A stretch of 5,812 nucleotides of DNA. Origin: Bordetella parapertussis (lineage in GTDB: Bacteria > Pseudomonadota > Gammaproteobacteria > Burkholderiales > Burkholderiaceae_B). This document shows, piece by piece, positions 6-5,812 of this stretch. Every line of letters begins with the position of its first letter. Positions within the stretch are counted from its first letter, which is position 1. The stretch lies in contig CAMBZR010000119.1 in NCBI GenBank assembly GCA_945872285.1, positions 1 through 5,812 on the forward strand. Direction: 5' to 3'. The translations under genes were made by a program, and so were the position numbers. The notes under the pieces are model-generated. The model was given only the letters and a program-made list of their open reading frames with translations, searched no databases and was not told where the DNA came from.

Positions 6-917
6 ATGACTCAAACAAATATCCATTCGTCTCGTGCCGCTGTTCGACCGCTTGCTCAAAACGCCTTGGCGCTGGATCATCTAGTGATTAACACGCATTT
101 TGAGATGAATGCGGCACATACGATCTTTGAACAACTCGGCTTTACTTTGACGCCGCGCGGGCGCCATAGCCTGGGTTCAATCAATCACCTGATGGTGTTT
201 GAGAACGATTACCTAGAACTGCTCGGTCTGCCAAGCGACGGTGGTCCGTTACGTGAAGAGGTCATTTCAAGCCCTGTTGGGATTGACGGACTCGTATTTA
301 AGACCACTGACGCTGCCCACACACACCAGTCTTTACAGACTGCGGGTTTTGCCGTGCAGCCTGTGCAGGCATTTTCGCGGCCTGTTGAGCTTGCTGGCGT
401 GGTGTCTGACGCTCGCTTCGAAACGGTACGTTTTGAGCCTGGCCAGTTTAGCGCCGGTCGTTTGTATTACTGCCAACATTTCACCCCTGAATTAGTTTGG
501 CGCAAAGAGTGGCGAGCCCACTCTAATGGCGTGAATAAACTGGCGGGCTTACTCATTGTGTGTGAATCGCCACAACAAGAAGCAAAACAATATGTCGCCG
601 CCGCCGGCGGTCTTGCAGCGCTTGGTGCAAACGGCGAGTATCGTGTACGTGGCGCACAGTACACCTTGGTCTTTGTGACTGCAGCGCAGTATGCAGAATG
701 CTTTGGTGGTTTGACCTGCGTAGGGGGTAAGCGCTCAAGTTTTTTTGGTGCGATCGCACTTCAGACGGCATCGTTGGCGCCGCTGCGTCAGGCACTAGAG
801 CGGCTGCAAAAAAATGGTTTGCACACGATCACCTGGCGCGAGCAACGCGGACGACTCGCGGTGCAAATTCCTGGCTTTAATACCTTGCTTGAGTTCGTTG
901 ACGCCGACATCGCATAA
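6..917 (+). CDS. VOC-superfamily (glyoxalase-like domain) protein
   Basis: This 303-residue cytosolic protein belongs to the vicinal oxygen chelate superfamily, close to the 'glyoxalase-like domain' group of proteobacteria. The first beta-alpha-beta module starts at L-D-H-L-V-I-N-T (residues 23-30). H25 is the usual first metal ligand, and H61 (N-H-L-M-V-F) and E71 (D-Y-L-E-L-L-G) are candidates for the next ones. A second region holds Y-C-Q-H-F-T-P-E-L-V-W (155-165), a stretch I associate with this subfamily, and the protein ends with a strand pattern at 283-298. The substrate cannot be told from sequence: the superfamily includes dioxygenases, glyoxalases and resistance proteins. The start is uncertain, because only five bases precede the ATG, no ribosome binding site can be seen and the frame is open to the window edge. 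The glutathione transferase gene follows 96 bases downstream on the same strand, so co-transcription is possible but not shown. Confidence 0.85.
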   Translation: MTQTNIHSSRAAVRPLAQNALALDHLVINTHFEMNAAHTIFEQLGFTLTPRGRHSLGSINHLMVFENDYLELLGLPSDGGPLREEVISSPVGIDGLVFKTTDAAHTHQSLQTAGFAVQPVQAFSRPVELAGVVSDARFETVRFEPGQFSAGRLYYCQHFTPELVWRKEWRAHSNGVNKLAGLLIVCESPQQEAKQYVAAAGGLAALGANGEYRVRGAQYTLVFVTAAQYAECFGGLTCVGGKRSSFFGAIALQTASLAPLRQALERLQKNGLHTITWREQRGRLAVQIPGFNTLLEFVDADIA

Positions 918-983: not shown

Positions 984-1013
984 CGCTTTCTATCTTTTTT
1001 GAGGATCTTTTTC

Positions 1014-1634
1014 ATGTTCAAAATTTGGGGTCGTATCACTTCGATCAATGTCCGCAAAGCGGTATACGCAGCGCAAGAGCTTGGCCTTGACTTTGAACGC
1101 ATCGATGCGGGCGGTGTCTTTGGCATTGTCAAAACGCCAGAATATATTGCGTTGAATCCAAACTCGGTTGTCCCCACGCTAGTGGAGGGCGACTTTGTAC
1201 TGTGGGAGTCAAATGTCATCGTACGTTATTTGTGCGCCAAACATTCATTGGGCAAACTCTACCCAACTGACCTGCAAGAGCGTTTCAACGCCGAGCGCTG
1301 GATGGACTGGCAACAAACTACCTTTAGCCCCTCAGGGCGCGACGCGTTCTGGCAACTGATCCGTGTGCCTGAGGCCGAACGTGATATGAAAAAAGTCGAA
1401 GCCTCGATTGCGTCAACCGAGGTTCTGCTTGATCGTCTTGAAAATCATCTCAGTCACAATGTCTTTGTCGCAGGTTCCAACATGACGATGGCTGATATCC
1501 CTCTTACCTGTGAAGTACACCGCTGGTATGGCTTGCCGATCCCGCATAAACCACGCCCGGCCGTCGAGGCCTGGTACGCAAAAATGCTGGCTCGCCCCGC
1601 TGCTAAAAATGTACTGACCTTGCCTTTGTCCTAG
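1014..1634 (+). CDS. Glutathione S-transferase family protein
   Basis: This 206-residue cytosolic protein has the standard two-domain GST layout and length. The N-terminal thioredoxin-like domain (about 1-80) carries W-G-R-I-T-S-I-N-V-R-K (5-15), where S10 and N12 are the likely glutathione-activating residues. It also has V-V-P-T-L (52-56) with the conserved cis-proline P54, and W-E-S-N (64-67), where E65 and S66 bind the gamma-glutamyl part of glutathione. The all-helical C-terminal domain (about 88-206) holds the folding motif S-N-M-T-M-A-D-I (155-162). Such enzymes conjugate glutathione to electrophiles or act in dehalogenation and isomerisation; the substrate here is unknown. The ATG at 1014 is preferred over an in-frame TTG at 999, because GAGG at 1001-1004 sits nine bases before the ATG and the domain starts at M-F-K-I-W-G. 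The gene faces the lipoprotein gene convergently across an 81-base gap with no clear terminator. Confidence 0.93.
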   Translation: MFKIWGRITSINVRKAVYAAQELGLDFERIDAGGVFGIVKTPEYIALNPNSVVPTLVEGDFVLWESNVIVRYLCAKHSLGKLYPTDLQERFNAERWMDWQQTTFSPSGRDAFWQLIRVPEAERDMKKVEASIASTEVLLDRLENHLSHNVFVAGSNMTMADIPLTCEVHRWYGLPIPHKPRPAVEAWYAKMLARPAAKNVLTLPLS

Positions 1635-1715: not shown

Positions 1716-2639
1716 TTACTTCAGCGAGCCTTGCGTCAAGCGCTTAGGAGTCAAACTGGCAAAGTCTTGTGCATAGCCGCCAAGCTTCTTTTTTAGGTAA
1801 ATTTTTTGCTCTGGTGTCAAGCTATTCAAAACATCTGCCGTTGCTTGGGCCCAATCTTGTCTGAGTGGCGATTGTTGAGCGGCGAGTGCCGGTTCGCGAT
1901 AGCTCTTCAGGCTAGCTAAATACTCGCGCAAGGCGACTTCAGCCTGTAGGGGGTCTTTACCTCGATACTGCTCTAACAGGTCTAGCAAGGCTTTTTGCCT
2001 CAGCGTACGCTCGTCGCCCCAGCCTGCAAATATTTTTGACCGTCTGTCAGACAACGCAGTGATCAGCTTTTCTTGGCTCTTGGTGAGCACACCCAGCCAG
2101 TCTTCATAGCGTTTAAGCGCGCGTTTGTGGTGATTTTTGCGGGTCGCTTCGCTATTAGGATTCTTGAGGAATTCATTAAAATAATCTTTGTTCTCGCTTT
2201 CGAACTCGGCCTTGAGCCGTAACTGTTGCTTCGGAGTCAAAGTGACGAGCAGGCCGGCGAGTTGTGAAGCAGCGCGCTGCCCCAACACTTCAAGTGCGAA
2301 CTCAACCTGTTGTTGAATCGCTAGCACTTCGGTGACGGTAAAAGGTGTCGCCACCTCGACTCTTGCCTGCCAGGTTTCTAAGGTTCGCGTGTAGTCCGGT
2401 AAGGCGGTCTCGGCATGCCACGCAATGAAGGTCTCAAGCTCTTGATCAAGCGTCACCTTTTGCGCGCCATCCAGACTGAAATAACCATTCAGTCGATACG
2501 CCAGATAGTTAGGGGCATAGTTGTAAGCGATCTGCAACGAACTGCAGCCAGACAACACAAGCACAACGCAGAGCGCTTGAACAGCTTTGAGCAGACGTAC
2601 TTCAAAAAAAAATCGTTTTAACTTCAACAAACCTTGCAT
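1716..2639 (-). CDS. DUF6279-type secreted lipoprotein with LTxxQ motifs
   Basis: This is a 307-residue predicted lipoprotein. A basic N-terminus (K-L-K-R) and a hydrophobic stretch lead to the lipobox L-S-G-C, so C32 should be lipidated after export. The following S-S-L-Q-I-A-Y-N-Y-A-P-N and L-N-G-Y-F-S-L-D are what I recognise as the start of the DUF6279 family, which has no established function. The rest is helical and charge-rich. It contains LTPKQ (134-138), LTKSQ (185-189) and LTPEQ (274-278), a pattern typical of Spy/CpxP periplasmic chaperones, though the protein is about twice their length. The ATG at 2639 is chosen over a TTG at 2657 (six residues longer); neither has a good ribosome binding site, so the start is moderately uncertain. 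Nine T residues in the coding strand (2604-2612) encode F-F-F in the leader. The gene is convergent with the GST gene and is probably transcribed alone. Confidence 0.85.
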   Translation of the reverse strand: MQGLLKLKRFFFEVRLLKAVQALCVVLVLSGCSSLQIAYNYAPNYLAYRLNGYFSLDGAQKVTLDQELETFIAWHAETALPDYTRTLETWQARVEVATPFTVTEVLAIQQQVEFALEVLGQRAASQLAGLLVTLTPKQQLRLKAEFESENKDYFNEFLKNPNSEATRKNHHKRALKRYEDWLGVLTKSQEKLITALSDRRSKIFAGWGDERTLRQKALLDLLEQYRGKDPLQAEVALREYLASLKSYREPALAAQQSPLRQDWAQATADVLNSLTPEQKIYLKKKLGGYAQDFASLTPKRLTQGSLK

Positions 2640-2725
2640 AGGTAAACGCCGGATCAAAAACTAGCGAAAAATCGAATAAGTGCCTTTAACTACAAGAAGA
2701 AACACGCTCACCACTATTCTCAATT

Positions 2726-2792
2726 TTGGCACACTCTCATAACCAAACAAAATAACCCCACATGCTTGGTACACTCTTTTCACCAAACAAAG
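2726..2792. repeat. Pair of 27-base imperfect direct repeats, 40-base period, each TTGG-N13-CCAA
   Basis: Copy 1 spans 2726-2752 and copy 2 spans 2766-2792, with 22 of 27 positions identical. Both begin TTGG, share ACACTCT, and end with ACCAAACAAA. Inside each copy TTGG and CCAA form an inverted pair 13 bases apart; copy 2 extends this to TTGGT and ACCAA. The 40-base period is close to four helical turns, which would place two bound regulators on the same DNA face. They lie about 87-155 bases upstream of the lipoprotein start. An operator role is inference. Confidence 0.5.
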
Positions 2793-2826
2793 CCCTCTCC
2801 CACACGTTCTGCACAACAACGATGCA

Positions 2827-2842
2827 TGAGTCTGACTCAGAC
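2827..2842. repeat. Two overlapping 13-base palindromes
   Basis: TGAGTC-T-GACTCA (2827-2839) and GTCTGA-C-TCAGAC (2830-2842) are both perfect inverted repeats around a single central base, offset by three bases. Neither is followed by a T tract, so this is not a terminator. It may be a protein-binding site or chance. Confidence 0.4.
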
Positions 2843-2993
2843 CTCTAGAAAATTATCTCTTGAAAGTCACCTGCTCTTGCGCTTAAATGCAGCAAATGCA
2901 GGCCTCCAAACAGAGCTTTGCACTAAATAGCGCCTCTTTGCGTGCCTTGCATAGAAGCCCTTTCAACGATCCAACCAAGTGGATGGCTACCCC

Positions 2994-3143
2994 ATGAAAC
3001 GCACATTTGTCTCAACGCTTCAGATCACGACCATTGTTTTAGCGTCGGCCGCTGGCCTGCTTAGTTCGCAGGCACAGGCGCAAACCGGGTGGTCAATATT
3101 GGATCGGCGCCAACAGATTAGACTAGCCTTTGACGCTGGCTGA
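2994..3143 (+). pseudogene. 5' fragment of an exported protein, probably a solute-binding protein
   Basis: This is a 49-codon frame opening with ATG and ending at TGA (3141-3143). Its first 29 residues form a textbook Sec signal peptide: basic M-K-R, a hydrophobic core T-T-I-V-L-A-S-A-A-G-L-L, and a likely cleavage site at A-Q-A just before Q-T-G-W. The mature part, S-I-L-D-R-R-Q-Q-I-R-L-A-F-D-A-G, resembles the first strand of family-3 extracellular solute-binding proteins of ABC transporters, which typically start 'LD-x-x-x-x-x-G-x-I/L-R-V-A/G-x-D'. Such proteins are about 250-300 residues long, so this would be a stump. It stops 13 bases before the end of the convergent diiron hydroxylase gene, where GC content also falls. 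Upstream GTGGATGG is only a weak ribosome binding site. It could instead be a genuine short secreted peptide. Family assignment is tentative; the signal peptide is clear. Confidence 0.5.
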
Positions 3144-3156
3144 CAATTAAGAAATC

Positions 3157-4752
3157 TCAGTCAATCGTCGTGTCAGCAGAGCCAAACAATCGGTGGGCTG
3201 TGATCCCAATTGAATGGCAGTGATCAATCAATTTTTTTGCATTAACTGCCGGAACCGTATCCTCTGCAGGATCAATGCTAGTCACAAACTGTAGCCAGGG
3301 TTCTGCCCCCATGGCGTAGACATACACGTTTTTACAGCCTAAGCTTTCAATGACCTTCAGGCCTCTTTCAAAATCCGAGCCATTCAAACGTCTGGACTGA
3401 TCCTTTTTTCGATCAACGGCTAACGGCATATAAGCACCGTATACCCAACTAAACGGAGCCCCTAAGCACTCCATTCCTAAAAATAGTGTCGTGACCTCAC
3501 CATATATCTCATTAATCAAGTCGTACATTTTCGGTTCAAGGTTATTGCTGTCAGCGGCAAATAACATGGTGTCTTCACCTGCCTTCATCAACCAAGCTAC
3601 CTTACTTTTTATGTCTAAATCTCCGTGCTCACCAATAAAAGGCAAGGCAATCAGTGTTAGATCATGATGTGCCAGCTGCTCAAAAACCTCGAGCGCAATA
3701 ACTTTCTTGAAACCAATCGACTCAAGCATCAATTTCAAAGAAGGATCAACCAACGATCCACCGCTAGCAGGAACAACAACCGTATCAACCTTATGTCTGA
3801 TCGCCAGCAACGTCTCGATCAATACATGATCCGCATGATTATGAGTCAACACGACAAAGTCGATACGCTCTGGTAAATCTGCCAAGGTGAATCGTGGCAA
3901 GGCATCATCGCCCTCGTAAGCGATGAGAGGATCCACTAATACATTCGCACCGCTAGGTGATTCGACTAGTACGCAAGCATGGCCAAAATAGCGCCAACGC
4001 GTTTTGCCCAGAGGGGTCTTGACAGAGGGTCGAGCGTCGACTTCAGCTTCGGTCAACAAACTACGTAATAACTCTAGCTCTGCATCCGTCACAGACAAGG
4101 CATTTGCAATTGCTTCAAATGGTTGCGGATGAGTTCTGAGTTGCGCTAAAAAATCGTAAAGGTTCGACTCAAAAGGTTTGTTGATCTCTAGTGCGCCAGT
4201 CGTTTTTAAGCGTGGGGTACTAAACGCAAAAGGTCTATCGTTGCCCTTTACCCGATACATCATTGCGCTTTGCATATCTGGTCGTTGATATTTTTTTTTA
4301 TAAAGCAAAGGCTCAATGACCCTTATATCTGGTGCACCCGACAAGGTGTATACCAACTCAACGTACCCCTTAACACTTTCAGGAAGTTGCGAATAATACT
4401 GCTCAATGCTGAACCCATCAGCGCTCTTCATCAGAAGGCGCAAGGATTGACGCAACCCTTCACCAAACTGAATCATTTGTACTTGCTGCTTAGTCGACTC
4501 TAGAAGCGCTTTCACCTCGTCCACGCGCGCAGGAGGCAGGTCAACAAAAGGACCGCCTCTGAGCGCAGAATTTTTACAAGCCGCTTCATGGATATCTGGC
4601 GAGGAGACGAAGGACTCCATCAGCGGCAAATAACGATAGGCAAGGCTTAGGCATGCAGTCGCTGGCGAAATCATGTGCGACCACGCATACCAGCGAGAAA
4701 TTAATGGCTCAATCACAACGTCCGATTTGAGCAAATACTGAGTCGCAGACAT
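3157..4752 (-). CDS. CmlA-like diiron beta-hydroxylase (metallo-beta-lactamase fold) for NRPS-bound amino acid
   Basis: The protein has 531 residues, nearly the length of CmlA (532), the chloramphenicol-pathway enzyme that uses a dinuclear iron site and O2 to beta-hydroxylate an amino acid tethered to an NRPS carrier domain. An N-terminal domain (1 to about 245), with A-L-R-G-G-P-F-V-D-L-P at 63-73, precedes a metallo-beta-lactamase domain starting near R-W-R-Y-F-G-H-A-C (252-260). Visible metal motifs are T-H-N-H-A-D-H (H304, H306, D308, H309), G-E-H (E375) and A-A-D-S-N-N (D401). They line up within one or two residues with the CmlA ligands I recall (H305, H307, D309, H310, E377, D403). The further C-terminal histidine ligand cannot be placed by eye; H511, H513 and H520 are the only later histidines. 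A glutamate (E375) at the second-shell motif sets this type apart from zinc hydrolases. The ATG at 4752 is preferred over a TTG seven codons upstream. The gene lies 25 bases after mbtH and is surely co-transcribed. The amino acid substrate is unknown. Confidence 0.85.
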   Translation of the reverse strand: MSATQYLLKSDVVIEPLISRWYAWSHMISPATACLSLAYRYLPLMESFVSSPDIHEAACKNSALRGGPFVDLPPARVDEVKALLESTKQQVQMIQFGEGLRQSLRLLMKSADGFSIEQYYSQLPESVKGYVELVYTLSGAPDIRVIEPLLYKKKYQRPDMQSAMMYRVKGNDRPFAFSTPRLKTTGALEINKPFESNLYDFLAQLRTHPQPFEAIANALSVTDAELELLRSLLTEAEVDARPSVKTPLGKTRWRYFGHACVLVESPSGANVLVDPLIAYEGDDALPRFTLADLPERIDFVVLTHNHADHVLIETLLAIRHKVDTVVVPASGGSLVDPSLKLMLESIGFKKVIALEVFEQLAHHDLTLIALPFIGEHGDLDIKSKVAWLMKAGEDTMLFAADSNNLEPKMYDLINEIYGEVTTLFLGMECLGAPFSWVYGAYMPLAVDRKKDQSRRLNGSDFERGLKVIESLGCKNVYVYAMGAEPWLQFVTSIDPAEDTVPAVNAKKLIDHCHSIGITAHRLFGSADTTID

Positions 4753-4760
4753 TATGTGTA

Positions 4761-4764
4761 CCTT
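4761..4764 (-). promoter_or_regulatory. Ribosome binding site of the diiron hydroxylase gene
   Basis: Read on the minus strand, AAGG is followed by eight bases and then the ATG at 4752. This decides the start in favour of that ATG over the in-frame TTG at 4773, which would place this motif inside the coding region. The site lies in the 25-base gap after the mbtH stop codon. Confidence 0.6.
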
Positions 4765-4777
4765 GGCAAGCAAAAAA

Positions 4778-5023
4778 TCAATGCTTAACGACGGAATCCA
4801 TCGCGCGCCGCAAACTCGCTGGCCTCATATCTTTCCACTGCTCATCGATATAGGCAGAAACTTCTTGCTTGGAACCCGTAAACCCAAGGTCTTTCCAACC
4901 TAGGGGGATTTCCTTTTTTGCAGGCCAAATCGAATATTGCTCTTCGTCGTTGATCAGAACAGTAAATAGATCACCATCTATGGTGTAAGCATCAACGCGC
5001 TTATTGACATTAGTATCAGACAT
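4778..5023 (-). CDS. mbtH: MbtH-family protein (NRPS adenylation-domain partner)
   Basis: This is an 81-residue stand-alone MbtH-like protein; the family is usually 60-80 residues long. It shows most of the family signature: N-D-E-E-Q-Y-S-I-W-P (25-34), P-L-G-W (40-43), G-F-T-G (47-50), then W-K-D-M-R-P-A-S-L-R (63-72). Proteins of this family bind NRPS adenylation domains and are often needed for their solubility and activity. Two usual positions differ: the common 'C-L' before A-Y-I is V-S here (55-56), and the usual W-T-D is W-K-D. The three-helix end and the tryptophans that grip the adenylation domain (W33, W43) are present. Minus-strand AGGAA (5031-5035) lies about eight bases before the ATG and gives a good ribosome binding site. 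It is the first gene of the leftward operon, ahead of the diiron hydroxylase. Its presence strongly implies an NRPS gene close by, outside this window. Confidence 0.95.
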   Translation of the reverse strand: MSDTNVNKRVDAYTIDGDLFTVLINDEEQYSIWPAKKEIPLGWKDLGFTGSKQEVSAYIDEQWKDMRPASLRRAMDSVVKH

Positions 5024-5106
5024 TCAAATTTTCCTAAATTTTAAGATTTTTGAGTGATTTTGTGAGTAATTCAATCAGCTTTTGTCGTTCCCTATTCAGC
5101 CTCTAG

Positions 5107-5137
5107 ATTATATTACGGATTCTAGTAATTCTTTGAA
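5107..5137 (-). promoter_or_regulatory. Candidate sigma-70 promoter of the mbtH operon
   Basis: On the minus strand there is a perfect -10 box TATAAT (5112 down to 5107). A partial -35 box TTCAAA (5137-5132) lies 19 bases upstream, longer than the ideal 17. Transcription would begin near 5100 and leave a leader of about 75 bases before the mbtH ATG. An inverted repeat CTAGA-N13-TCTAG (5103-5125) covers the -10 box and much of the spacer, which could place a regulator over the promoter. Confidence 0.45.
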
Positions 5138-5159
5138 GAAAACCGTCTGCCTTAACGAT

Positions 5160-5175
5160 ACGTGGGGGTCCACGT
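5160..5175. repeat. Perfect inverted repeat ACGTGG-N4-CCACGT in the divergent promoter region
   Basis: Two perfect six-base arms flank a GGGT centre, about halfway between the mbtH start and the aromatic hydroxylase start. There is no T tract after it in either direction, so it is not a normal terminator. Its GC-rich sequence stands out in AT-rich surroundings. It is a plausible operator for a regulator controlling both directions; this is inference. Confidence 0.45.
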
Positions 5176-5247
5176 CTGCAGCGCACCAGCCCCTGAATTG
5201 ACTCATTCAAATTCAACATCATTTCTTTTGATTTTTAGAGTTTTTCA

Positions 5248-5812
5248 ATGACGACTCATAGTTACACCACTATCCAGCAATGGGATATTTATAGTCAAGA
5301 AAATCATAAAACATGGGAAATCTTGTTTAGCGCTTGTCATGAAAGCGCCTCACTGTATATGTGTAGTGAGTTTCTACAAGGTCTAGCAAAATTAGATCTA
5401 AATCATAAAAGAATTCCAAACTTAAAAGACCTTTCTGACCATCTGCGATCGATTTCCGGATGGGAAATCGTGACCGTTGCAGGCTTAGTGCCGGATGATA
5501 TTTATTTCGGTTTTATTGCTCAGAAAAAATTTCCGGTCAATATCAATATAAGAGATATTGAGCACTTAGATTTTATTGACTATCCCGATCTATTTCATGA
5601 TGATTTTGGCCATATACCTCTGCTAATTTCGCCCAACATTGCATCATTTATCCAATACTGCGGAATTTGTATCACCGGCGCGATTCGTGACAACTCACTC
5701 ACAAAGCTCGATGAATCAAAACGCCTCTACTGGTACACGATGGAGGTTGGCTTCGTCCGAGAGAGTGAAACAGTAAAAATCCTCGGTTCTGCGATCGCCT
5801 CGTCAAAAAAAG
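5248..5812 (+). CDS. Pterin-dependent aromatic amino acid hydroxylase (3' end beyond window)
   Basis: The first 188 codons are present and the frame is open at the window end. The family is the biopterin-dependent phenylalanine/tyrosine/tryptophan hydroxylases, cytosolic non-heme iron enzymes; bacterial members are about 260-300 residues and lack the animal regulatory domain, as seems true here. Visible landmarks are S-G-W-E-I-V-T-V-A-G-L-V-P (70-82), F-P-V-N-I-N-I-R (95-102), D-L-F-H-D-D-F-G-H-I-P-L-L (114-126) with iron ligands H117 and H122, and L-Y-W-Y-T-M-E-V-G-F-V (160-170) with the third ligand E166. The motif after the glutamate differs from the usual E-F-G-L. GC is about 40% by hand count (5281-5812), well below the left-hand genes. 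AGAG (5237-5240) seven bases before the ATG is a modest ribosome binding site. Divergence from mbtH suggests it supplies tyrosine, m-tyrosine or another ring-hydroxylated amino acid for peptide assembly rather than phenylalanine breakdown. Regiospecificity cannot be read by eye. Confidence 0.88.
   Translation, partial: MTTHSYTTIQQWDIYSQENHKTWEILFSACHESASLYMCSEFLQGLAKLDLNHKRIPNLKDLSDHLRSISGWEIVTVAGLVPDDIYFGFIAQKKFPVNINIRDIEHLDFIDYPDLFHDDFGHIPLLISPNIASFIQYCGICITGAIRDNSLTKLDESKRLYWYTMEVGFVRESETVKILGSAIASSKK

Follow-up and report, generated by a model that had tools for sequence, protein, structure and literature searches.

A divergent pterin-dependent aromatic hydroxylase beside MbtH and CmlA-like genes at the putative border of a non-ribosomal peptide cluster in Burkholderiales

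What would a pterin-dependent aromatic amino acid hydroxylase (AAAH) supply when its gene lies beside genes for an MbtH protein and a CmlA-like enzyme? The question is raised by a stretch of 5,812 nucleotides, hereafter the window, from a contig assigned to Bordetella parapertussis (CAMBZR010000119.1, assembly GCA_945872285.1), where open reading frames (ORFs) and Pfam matches place the three genes side by side, as the original prediction had stated. That prediction took the locus for the edge of a non-ribosomal peptide (NRP) gene cluster making an aromatic amino acid hydroxylated on the ring and at the beta carbon. As the window ends at 5812, the cluster context was drawn from the genomes of relatives (genomes and loci carry G and L numbers below). 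Our reading, to which we assign a probability of about 0.6, is that the locus is the edge of an NRP cluster in which the hydroxylase would make a non-para, most likely meta, hydroxylated phenylalanine for an NRP synthetase (NRPS), with the CmlA-like enzyme expected to add a beta-hydroxyl to a residue bound to a carrier. What stands out most is a separate branch of the phenylalanine hydroxylase family that is linked to NRPS genes.

Two types of hydroxylase

The hydroxylase frame runs past the window end at 5812; a full-length protein of 236 aa (P0001), 99% identical to the window fragment, lies on a contig of 108,650 bases. Among the nine proteins listed by a single-sequence search, only P0001 (itself) and P0002 (70%) exceeded 40% identity, and the protein was about 36% identical to the solved phenylalanine hydroxylase of Chromobacterium violaceum, so that the original prediction rightly called it divergent. 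Its predicted fold (predicted local distance difference test score, pLDDT, 93.1; predicted template modelling score, pTM, 0.90) matched the Chromobacterium enzyme (Foldseek 4esm, TM 0.89), and iron ligands equivalent to H285, H290 and E330 are kept in the catalytic fold, as expected of an AAAH. The iron ligands, Arg270 and Trp326 were retained in all hydroxylases compared, of both types defined below. A scan of a viral collection with the hydroxylase gave two pattern matches and no relative.

We compared all 32 hydroxylase loci from 268 genomes of the family (E up to 1e-30), together with the locus of a Polynucleobacter genome (G011), and sorted them by the residues at the equivalents of human PAH sites 331 and 346, with sites 280/331/346 numbered as we take them to be in that enzyme. 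Loci with Val/Ala were called V/A type and those with Phe/Gly F/G type. The latter, ordinary PhhA, comprised 24 loci with Phe331, Gly346 and Glu280; the V/A type comprised nine, with Tyr (7), Leu (1) or Phe (1) at site 280. The hydroxylase of the window has Tyr/Val/Ala at the three sites, and Val and Ala likewise replace the Phe/Gly pair of PhhA in P0001 and P0002. A match to an NRPS adenylation domain, MbtH or CmlA was present on the locus stretch for 9/9 V/A loci versus 1/24 F/G loci. PhhB or HppD was present for 0/9 versus 19/24, the window itself showing the left side only; thus a phhB neighbour, the original prediction's own sign of phenylalanine catabolism, was found beside none of the nine relatives. 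The lone F/G locus with an adenylation-like match (G171) has a 529-aa single-domain ORF, probably an acyl-CoA ligase, which was kept in the counts. HppD was absent from all nine V/A genomes, so that the Phe-Tyr-homogentisate route is unavailable there, and was present in each of the 11 F/G genomes searched (of 24), in one of them below the curated cut-off.

The V/A rows, P0001 and P0002 formed a single clade (support 100/98). Its Shimodaira-Hasegawa-like approximate likelihood ratio test (SH-aLRT) value was 93 after removal of the three signature columns and 99 when three long-branch rows were also dropped, both hydroxylase trees carrying long-branch warnings. Eight of the nine V/A loci were recovered when the 268 genomes were searched using the hydroxylase alone. 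The best 120 of 1208 profile hits comprised 35 V/A proteins (Tyr, Phe or Asp at site 280), 84 F/G proteins (Glu) and one with Val/Thr/Ala, a list biased to V/A, the profile having been V/A. The most divergent V/A hydroxylase (G082, L168:327-6377), with Leu at site 280, sits beside an NRPS-like ORF. A Streptomyces tendae plasmid hydroxylase annotated as hypothetical (L194:3974-4702), with Phe/Thr/Ala at 280/331/346, adjoins an adenylation-domain gene and lies near gntD.

Peptide synthetase context in relatives

The CmlA-like protein has the CmlA_N domain, the metallo-beta-lactamase fold and the metal motif of CmlA-type enzymes. Its best relative among solved structures was PDB 8a90 (E 5.6e-121, 407.9 bits), which we take to be FrsH, the structure entry itself reading non-heme diiron monooxygenase; CmlA 4jo0 followed at E 2e-105, the two best CmlA entries scoring 356.6-356.9 bits. 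The HxHxDH motif (311-316), E382, H383, D385, D408 and E435 were invariant across 18 aligned CmlA-like relatives. A scan of genome contigs retained 80 CmlA-like loci from 166 relatives; 13 of these (L001-L013), proteobacterial and including Zwartia, Sheuella and Polynucleobacter, were 56-67% identical to the protein of the window (G001 being closest at 67%), and the next relative stood at 46%. In a quick tree of 40 rows the window grouped with Zwartia hollandica within a set of 17 rows (SH-aLRT 100), and in an order-wide sample of 399 genomes a CmlA-like match at 1e-100 was found in five, none closer than G001. The MbtH protein matched Pfam, and the signature, which we take to be NxExQxSxWP ... 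PxGW ... WxDxRP, was legible in the translation; MbtH genes 56-72% identical to it sit near the CmlA relatives at 6/13 close loci. In a scan for anti-phage families, neither the CmlA-like protein nor the fragment of the hydroxylase gave a match.

Condensation domains were found in 13/13 genomes with close CmlA relatives, and the same search matched 2/14 control genomes; with the 9/9 V/A loci beside NRPS, MbtH or CmlA genes, the predicted cluster edge is well supported by comparison with relatives. An NRPS adjoins the same gene types in L004, L010, L011, L013, L121 and L122, and none is within the window. The hydroxylase was on the fetched stretch of L004, L010, L012 and L013 and on none of the other 76 loci, the stretches varying in length. 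In Zwartia panacis (G010) an outer protein with a thioesterase, SPFH, an ABC exporter, DUF697, ParA, a further DUF697 and MbtH are followed by NRPSs of 3272 aa and 6499 aa, the hydroxylase, PhyH, Cupin_8 and then, on the opposite strand, CmlA. The Polynucleobacter genome (G011) has CmlA, MbtH and an NRPS at one contig end, with the hydroxylase and a second NRPS about 13 kb off. In G007, MbtH is followed by the hydroxylase and then by an AMP-binding/ACP/KS/AT/DH/KR protein and an NRPS; in G267 the hydroxylase adjoins MbtH at a contig end. Relatives show these gene types together as well, so their grouping goes beyond chance.

Further genes accompany the clusters. PhyH and Cupin_8 oxygenases recur next to the hydroxylase (L119:8320-10034 and relatives), so further oxidations are likely. 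At L004:12504-14252 a single 582-aa frame spans the hydroxylase and a PhyH dioxygenase, possibly a gene fusion that hints at one pathway. A ParA-like ATPase, two DUF697 proteins and a cyclic-peptide-type ABC exporter, often with SPFH, form a block at L118:12658-17433 and also in L005, L007, L011, L012, L124 and L164, ParA-like matches occurring on the fetched stretches of 8/13 genomes; one idea is that this block serves to position a complex for export or assembly.

Ring position and target residue

The meta regiochemistry of the phenylalanine 3-hydroxylase (Phe3H) of Streptomyces is influenced by just these sites 331 and 346: in the available part of PMC7027792, C187 of that enzyme replaces the Phe, and T202 the Gly, of phenylalanine 4-hydroxylases, and the C187A mutant still gave 100% meta product while T202A gave 67%. 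The two sites are 15 residues apart in P0001 (V167, A182), as they are in Phe3H according to the same part of that source. The product of the V/A hydroxylase is predicted to be a phenylalanine hydroxylated on the ring at a non-para site, most likely meta.

Adenylation codes were read by alignment in domains located by motif within the fetched stretches, the positions being anchored on GrsA; both the GrsA positions and the residue assignments (Ser-, Phe-, Asn-, Gly- and Tyr-like) are as we take them to be. The two cluster NRPSs of Z. panacis gave DGQTCAAVC, DVWHVSLIH and DAQYFALVV along with DVWHVSLID (Ser-like), DAWTVAAVC (Phe-like), DASKVGEVG (Asn-like) and DILQLGMVW (Gly-like). The DGQT type occurred in G004, G010, G011, G012 and G013, that is, in 5/7 hydroxylase-bearing genomes versus 0/6 without the hydroxylase. 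In 5/5 stretches it stood first among the adenylation domains of its NRPS, with MbtH directly upstream in three. The code is Phe-like apart from Gly and Gln at positions 2 and 3, which would fit a phenylalanine hydroxylated on the ring. No DGQT domain was found in the fetched stretches of G001, G007 and G267, which are nearest to the window by hydroxylase; G001 has a Tyr-like DASTVAGVC domain.

In the scheme that we propose, the hydroxylase would take free phenylalanine and hydroxylate its ring away from the para position, most likely at meta, and an NRPS helped by MbtH would then load the ring-hydroxylated product. A beta-hydroxyl would be added by the CmlA-like enzyme, either to this residue or to a different one bound to a carrier. 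Recycling of the pterin would be expected to fall to a carbinolamine dehydratase whose gene lies at another place in the genome; a pterin dehydratase was found in 14/15 genomes, on a contig separate from the hydroxylase in all nine V/A genomes.

Other readings of the hydroxylase are less probable in our judgement. It is unlikely that the enzyme still yields p-tyrosine, dedicated to NRPS supply: the fold and iron ligands do match phenylalanine 4-hydroxylase, and NRPS linkage by itself requires no new regiochemistry, but bacteria make tyrosine in any case, both para/meta pocket sites are altered in every V/A member seen, and the DGQT codes differ from the Tyr code, which we take to be DASTVAAVC. 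Rather more unlikely is a substrate other than phenylalanine, namely tryptophan or tyrosine (giving 5-hydroxytryptophan or DOPA). AAAH substrate choice is set by few residues and the pocket is altered, as this would require; yet Trp326 is retained, whereas tryptophan hydroxylases carry Phe there (available part of PMC7027792). We rejected, as highly improbable, an ordinary PhhA of phenylalanine catabolism that lies near MbtH by chance. The same Pfam family, and a match of NCBIfam Phe4hydrox_mono to the (short) window fragment below the curated cut-offs, would fit it; the neighbourhood counts, the pocket sites in the profile hits (all three signature sites being altered in the window) and the absence of HppD speak against it.

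The original prediction also placed both hydroxyls on one residue. The hydroxylase is indeed, by sequence, no ordinary PhhA; the joining of the two hydroxylations is less well supported, as no hydroxylase was matched in 6/13 genomes carrying a close relative of CmlA (genomes may be incomplete), which makes beta-hydroxylation independent of ring hydroxylation. A single doubly hydroxylated residue, with the pterin enzyme acting on the ring and the CmlA-like enzyme at the beta carbon on the same carrier, is possible but doubtful. CmlA itself takes a ring-substituted phenylalanine (available part of PMC5061366), the distance between the CmlA and hydroxylase genes is 2.1-3.0 kb in four relatives and 14.9 kb in G001, and G001, closest by CmlA, has the Tyr-like domain noted above. 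Against this, Z. panacis has two separate aromatic codes (DGQTCAAVC and DAWTVAAVC) in addition to Ser-, Asn- and Gly-like ones, so that several modules of Zwartia-type clusters could be CmlA targets and the two hydroxylations are separable. Among known enzymes, FrsH acts on a leucyl-T domain with an MbtH partner (available part of PMC7794379), and phenylalanine is the proposed substrate of KasD (available part of PMC5061366).

Several points weigh against a non-para hydroxylase serving an adjacent NRPS. The NRPS expected to the right of 5812 would lie outside the window. Seven of the nine V/A genomes were also among those initially found via CmlA. The V/A type has a single origin on the tree, which makes the context counts non-independent. 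The hydroxylase of the window is on a long branch, nearest to G001, G007 and G267; no DGQT domain was found in these, and the cluster of the window may therefore not use that code, and the association of DGQT with the hydroxylase is itself weak (Fisher p 0.021). The V/A enzyme is also without the Cys/Thr pair of the characterised phenylalanine 3-hydroxylases.

Gene layout and comparison with known systems

Table 1. Features of the window, with the support for each call
Feature	Coordinates	Strand	Support
Glyoxalase_3 protein	6-917	+	ORF and Pfam
GST	999-1634	+	ORF and Pfam
DUF6279 protein	1716-2657	-	ORF and Pfam
Predicted CmlA-type non-heme diiron beta-hydroxylase, 538 aa from TTG	3157-4773	-	Pfam CmlA_N 1.3e-73 and Lactamase_B_2
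MbtH-like protein, 81 aa, helper of NRPS adenylation domains	4778-5023	-	Pfam MbtH 1.1e-17
Divergent intergenic region, MbtH/CmlA versus hydroxylase	5024-5247	.	ORF coordinates
Pterin-dependent AAAH, 5' part, 188 codons, V/A type	5248-5812	+	Biopterin_H 6.2e-26 (5248-5811)

The MbtH and CmlA-like genes run in the same direction and nearly abut, and the AAAH and MbtH genes diverge with 224 bp between them. The CmlA-like ORF as listed starts with TTG; translation more probably begins at the in-frame ATG of codon 8 (about 4752). Promoter-like matches in 2600-5400 numbered six against a shuffle mean of 4.2, which is no excess, and a terminator scan also gave no excess over shuffles. No tie to the cluster was seen for the left flank (6-2657; glyoxalase-like, GST and DUF6279 lipoprotein-like), and none of its three genes was present on the close CmlA loci examined.

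No report of an NRPS-linked V/A hydroxylase branch was found in the open-access literature, where absence is weak evidence. No paper was found that joined CmlA, MbtH, phenylalanine hydroxylase and NRP, and, at abstract level, nothing pertinent appeared on Polynucleobacter NRPSs. Among the matches listed for AAAH, NRP and tetrahydropterin, no title or abstract dealt with the V/A branch. Matches on m-Tyr adenylation or NRPSs concerned sansanmycin or Streptomyces or were off-topic, and NRPS-related terms were not found in the Zwartia vadi paper. Enzymes that make meta-tyrosine are rare, and the characterised ones named in the available part of PMC7027792 come from Streptomyces pathways. We hold at about even odds that Burkholderiales evolved their own NRPS-dedicated Y/V/A hydroxylase lineage, which would reach a non-para tyrosine by a pocket pair other than that of Phe3H and feed undescribed peptides that also bear a CmlA-type beta-hydroxyl. 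If so, a second lineage with other pocket residues would test which changes fix ring regiochemistry, Y/V/A at 280/331/346 would be a genome-mining signature for rare aromatic building blocks, and an undescribed peptide family would be indicated among freshwater Burkholderiales, for example Zwartia and Polynucleobacter.

With PhhA of C. violaceum (1ltu) the hydroxylase of the window shares the fold (TM 0.89), the His/His/Glu iron ligands, Arg270 and Trp326; it differs in having Tyr, Val and Ala for Glu280, Phe331 and Gly346, and its relatives are without phhB or hppD neighbours. The kasumigamide cluster likewise has a CmlA-like enzyme (kasD, with proposed Phe beta-hydroxylation), an NRPS cluster and a cyclic peptide transporter, but, unlike the window, shows no pterin hydroxylase in the available part of its report (PMC5061366). 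The diiron beta-hydroxylases FrsH and CmlA (8a90, 4jo0) are alike in the CmlA_N and metallo-beta-lactamase domains, the conserved metal motif and the NRPS and MbtH partners, whereas the CmlA-like enzyme of the window belongs to a separate Burkholderiales clade. Also akin in proposed role is Phe3H of the Streptomyces uridyl peptide antibiotics, a pterin-dependent AAAH for NRPS supply in which both regiochemistry sites are also non-Phe/non-Gly; compared through the residues published in the available part of PMC7027792, the actinobacterial enzyme has Cys/Thr and that of the window, from Burkholderiales, Val/Ala; the likeness lies in the alteration of the same sites and not in membership among the phenylalanine 3-hydroxylases.

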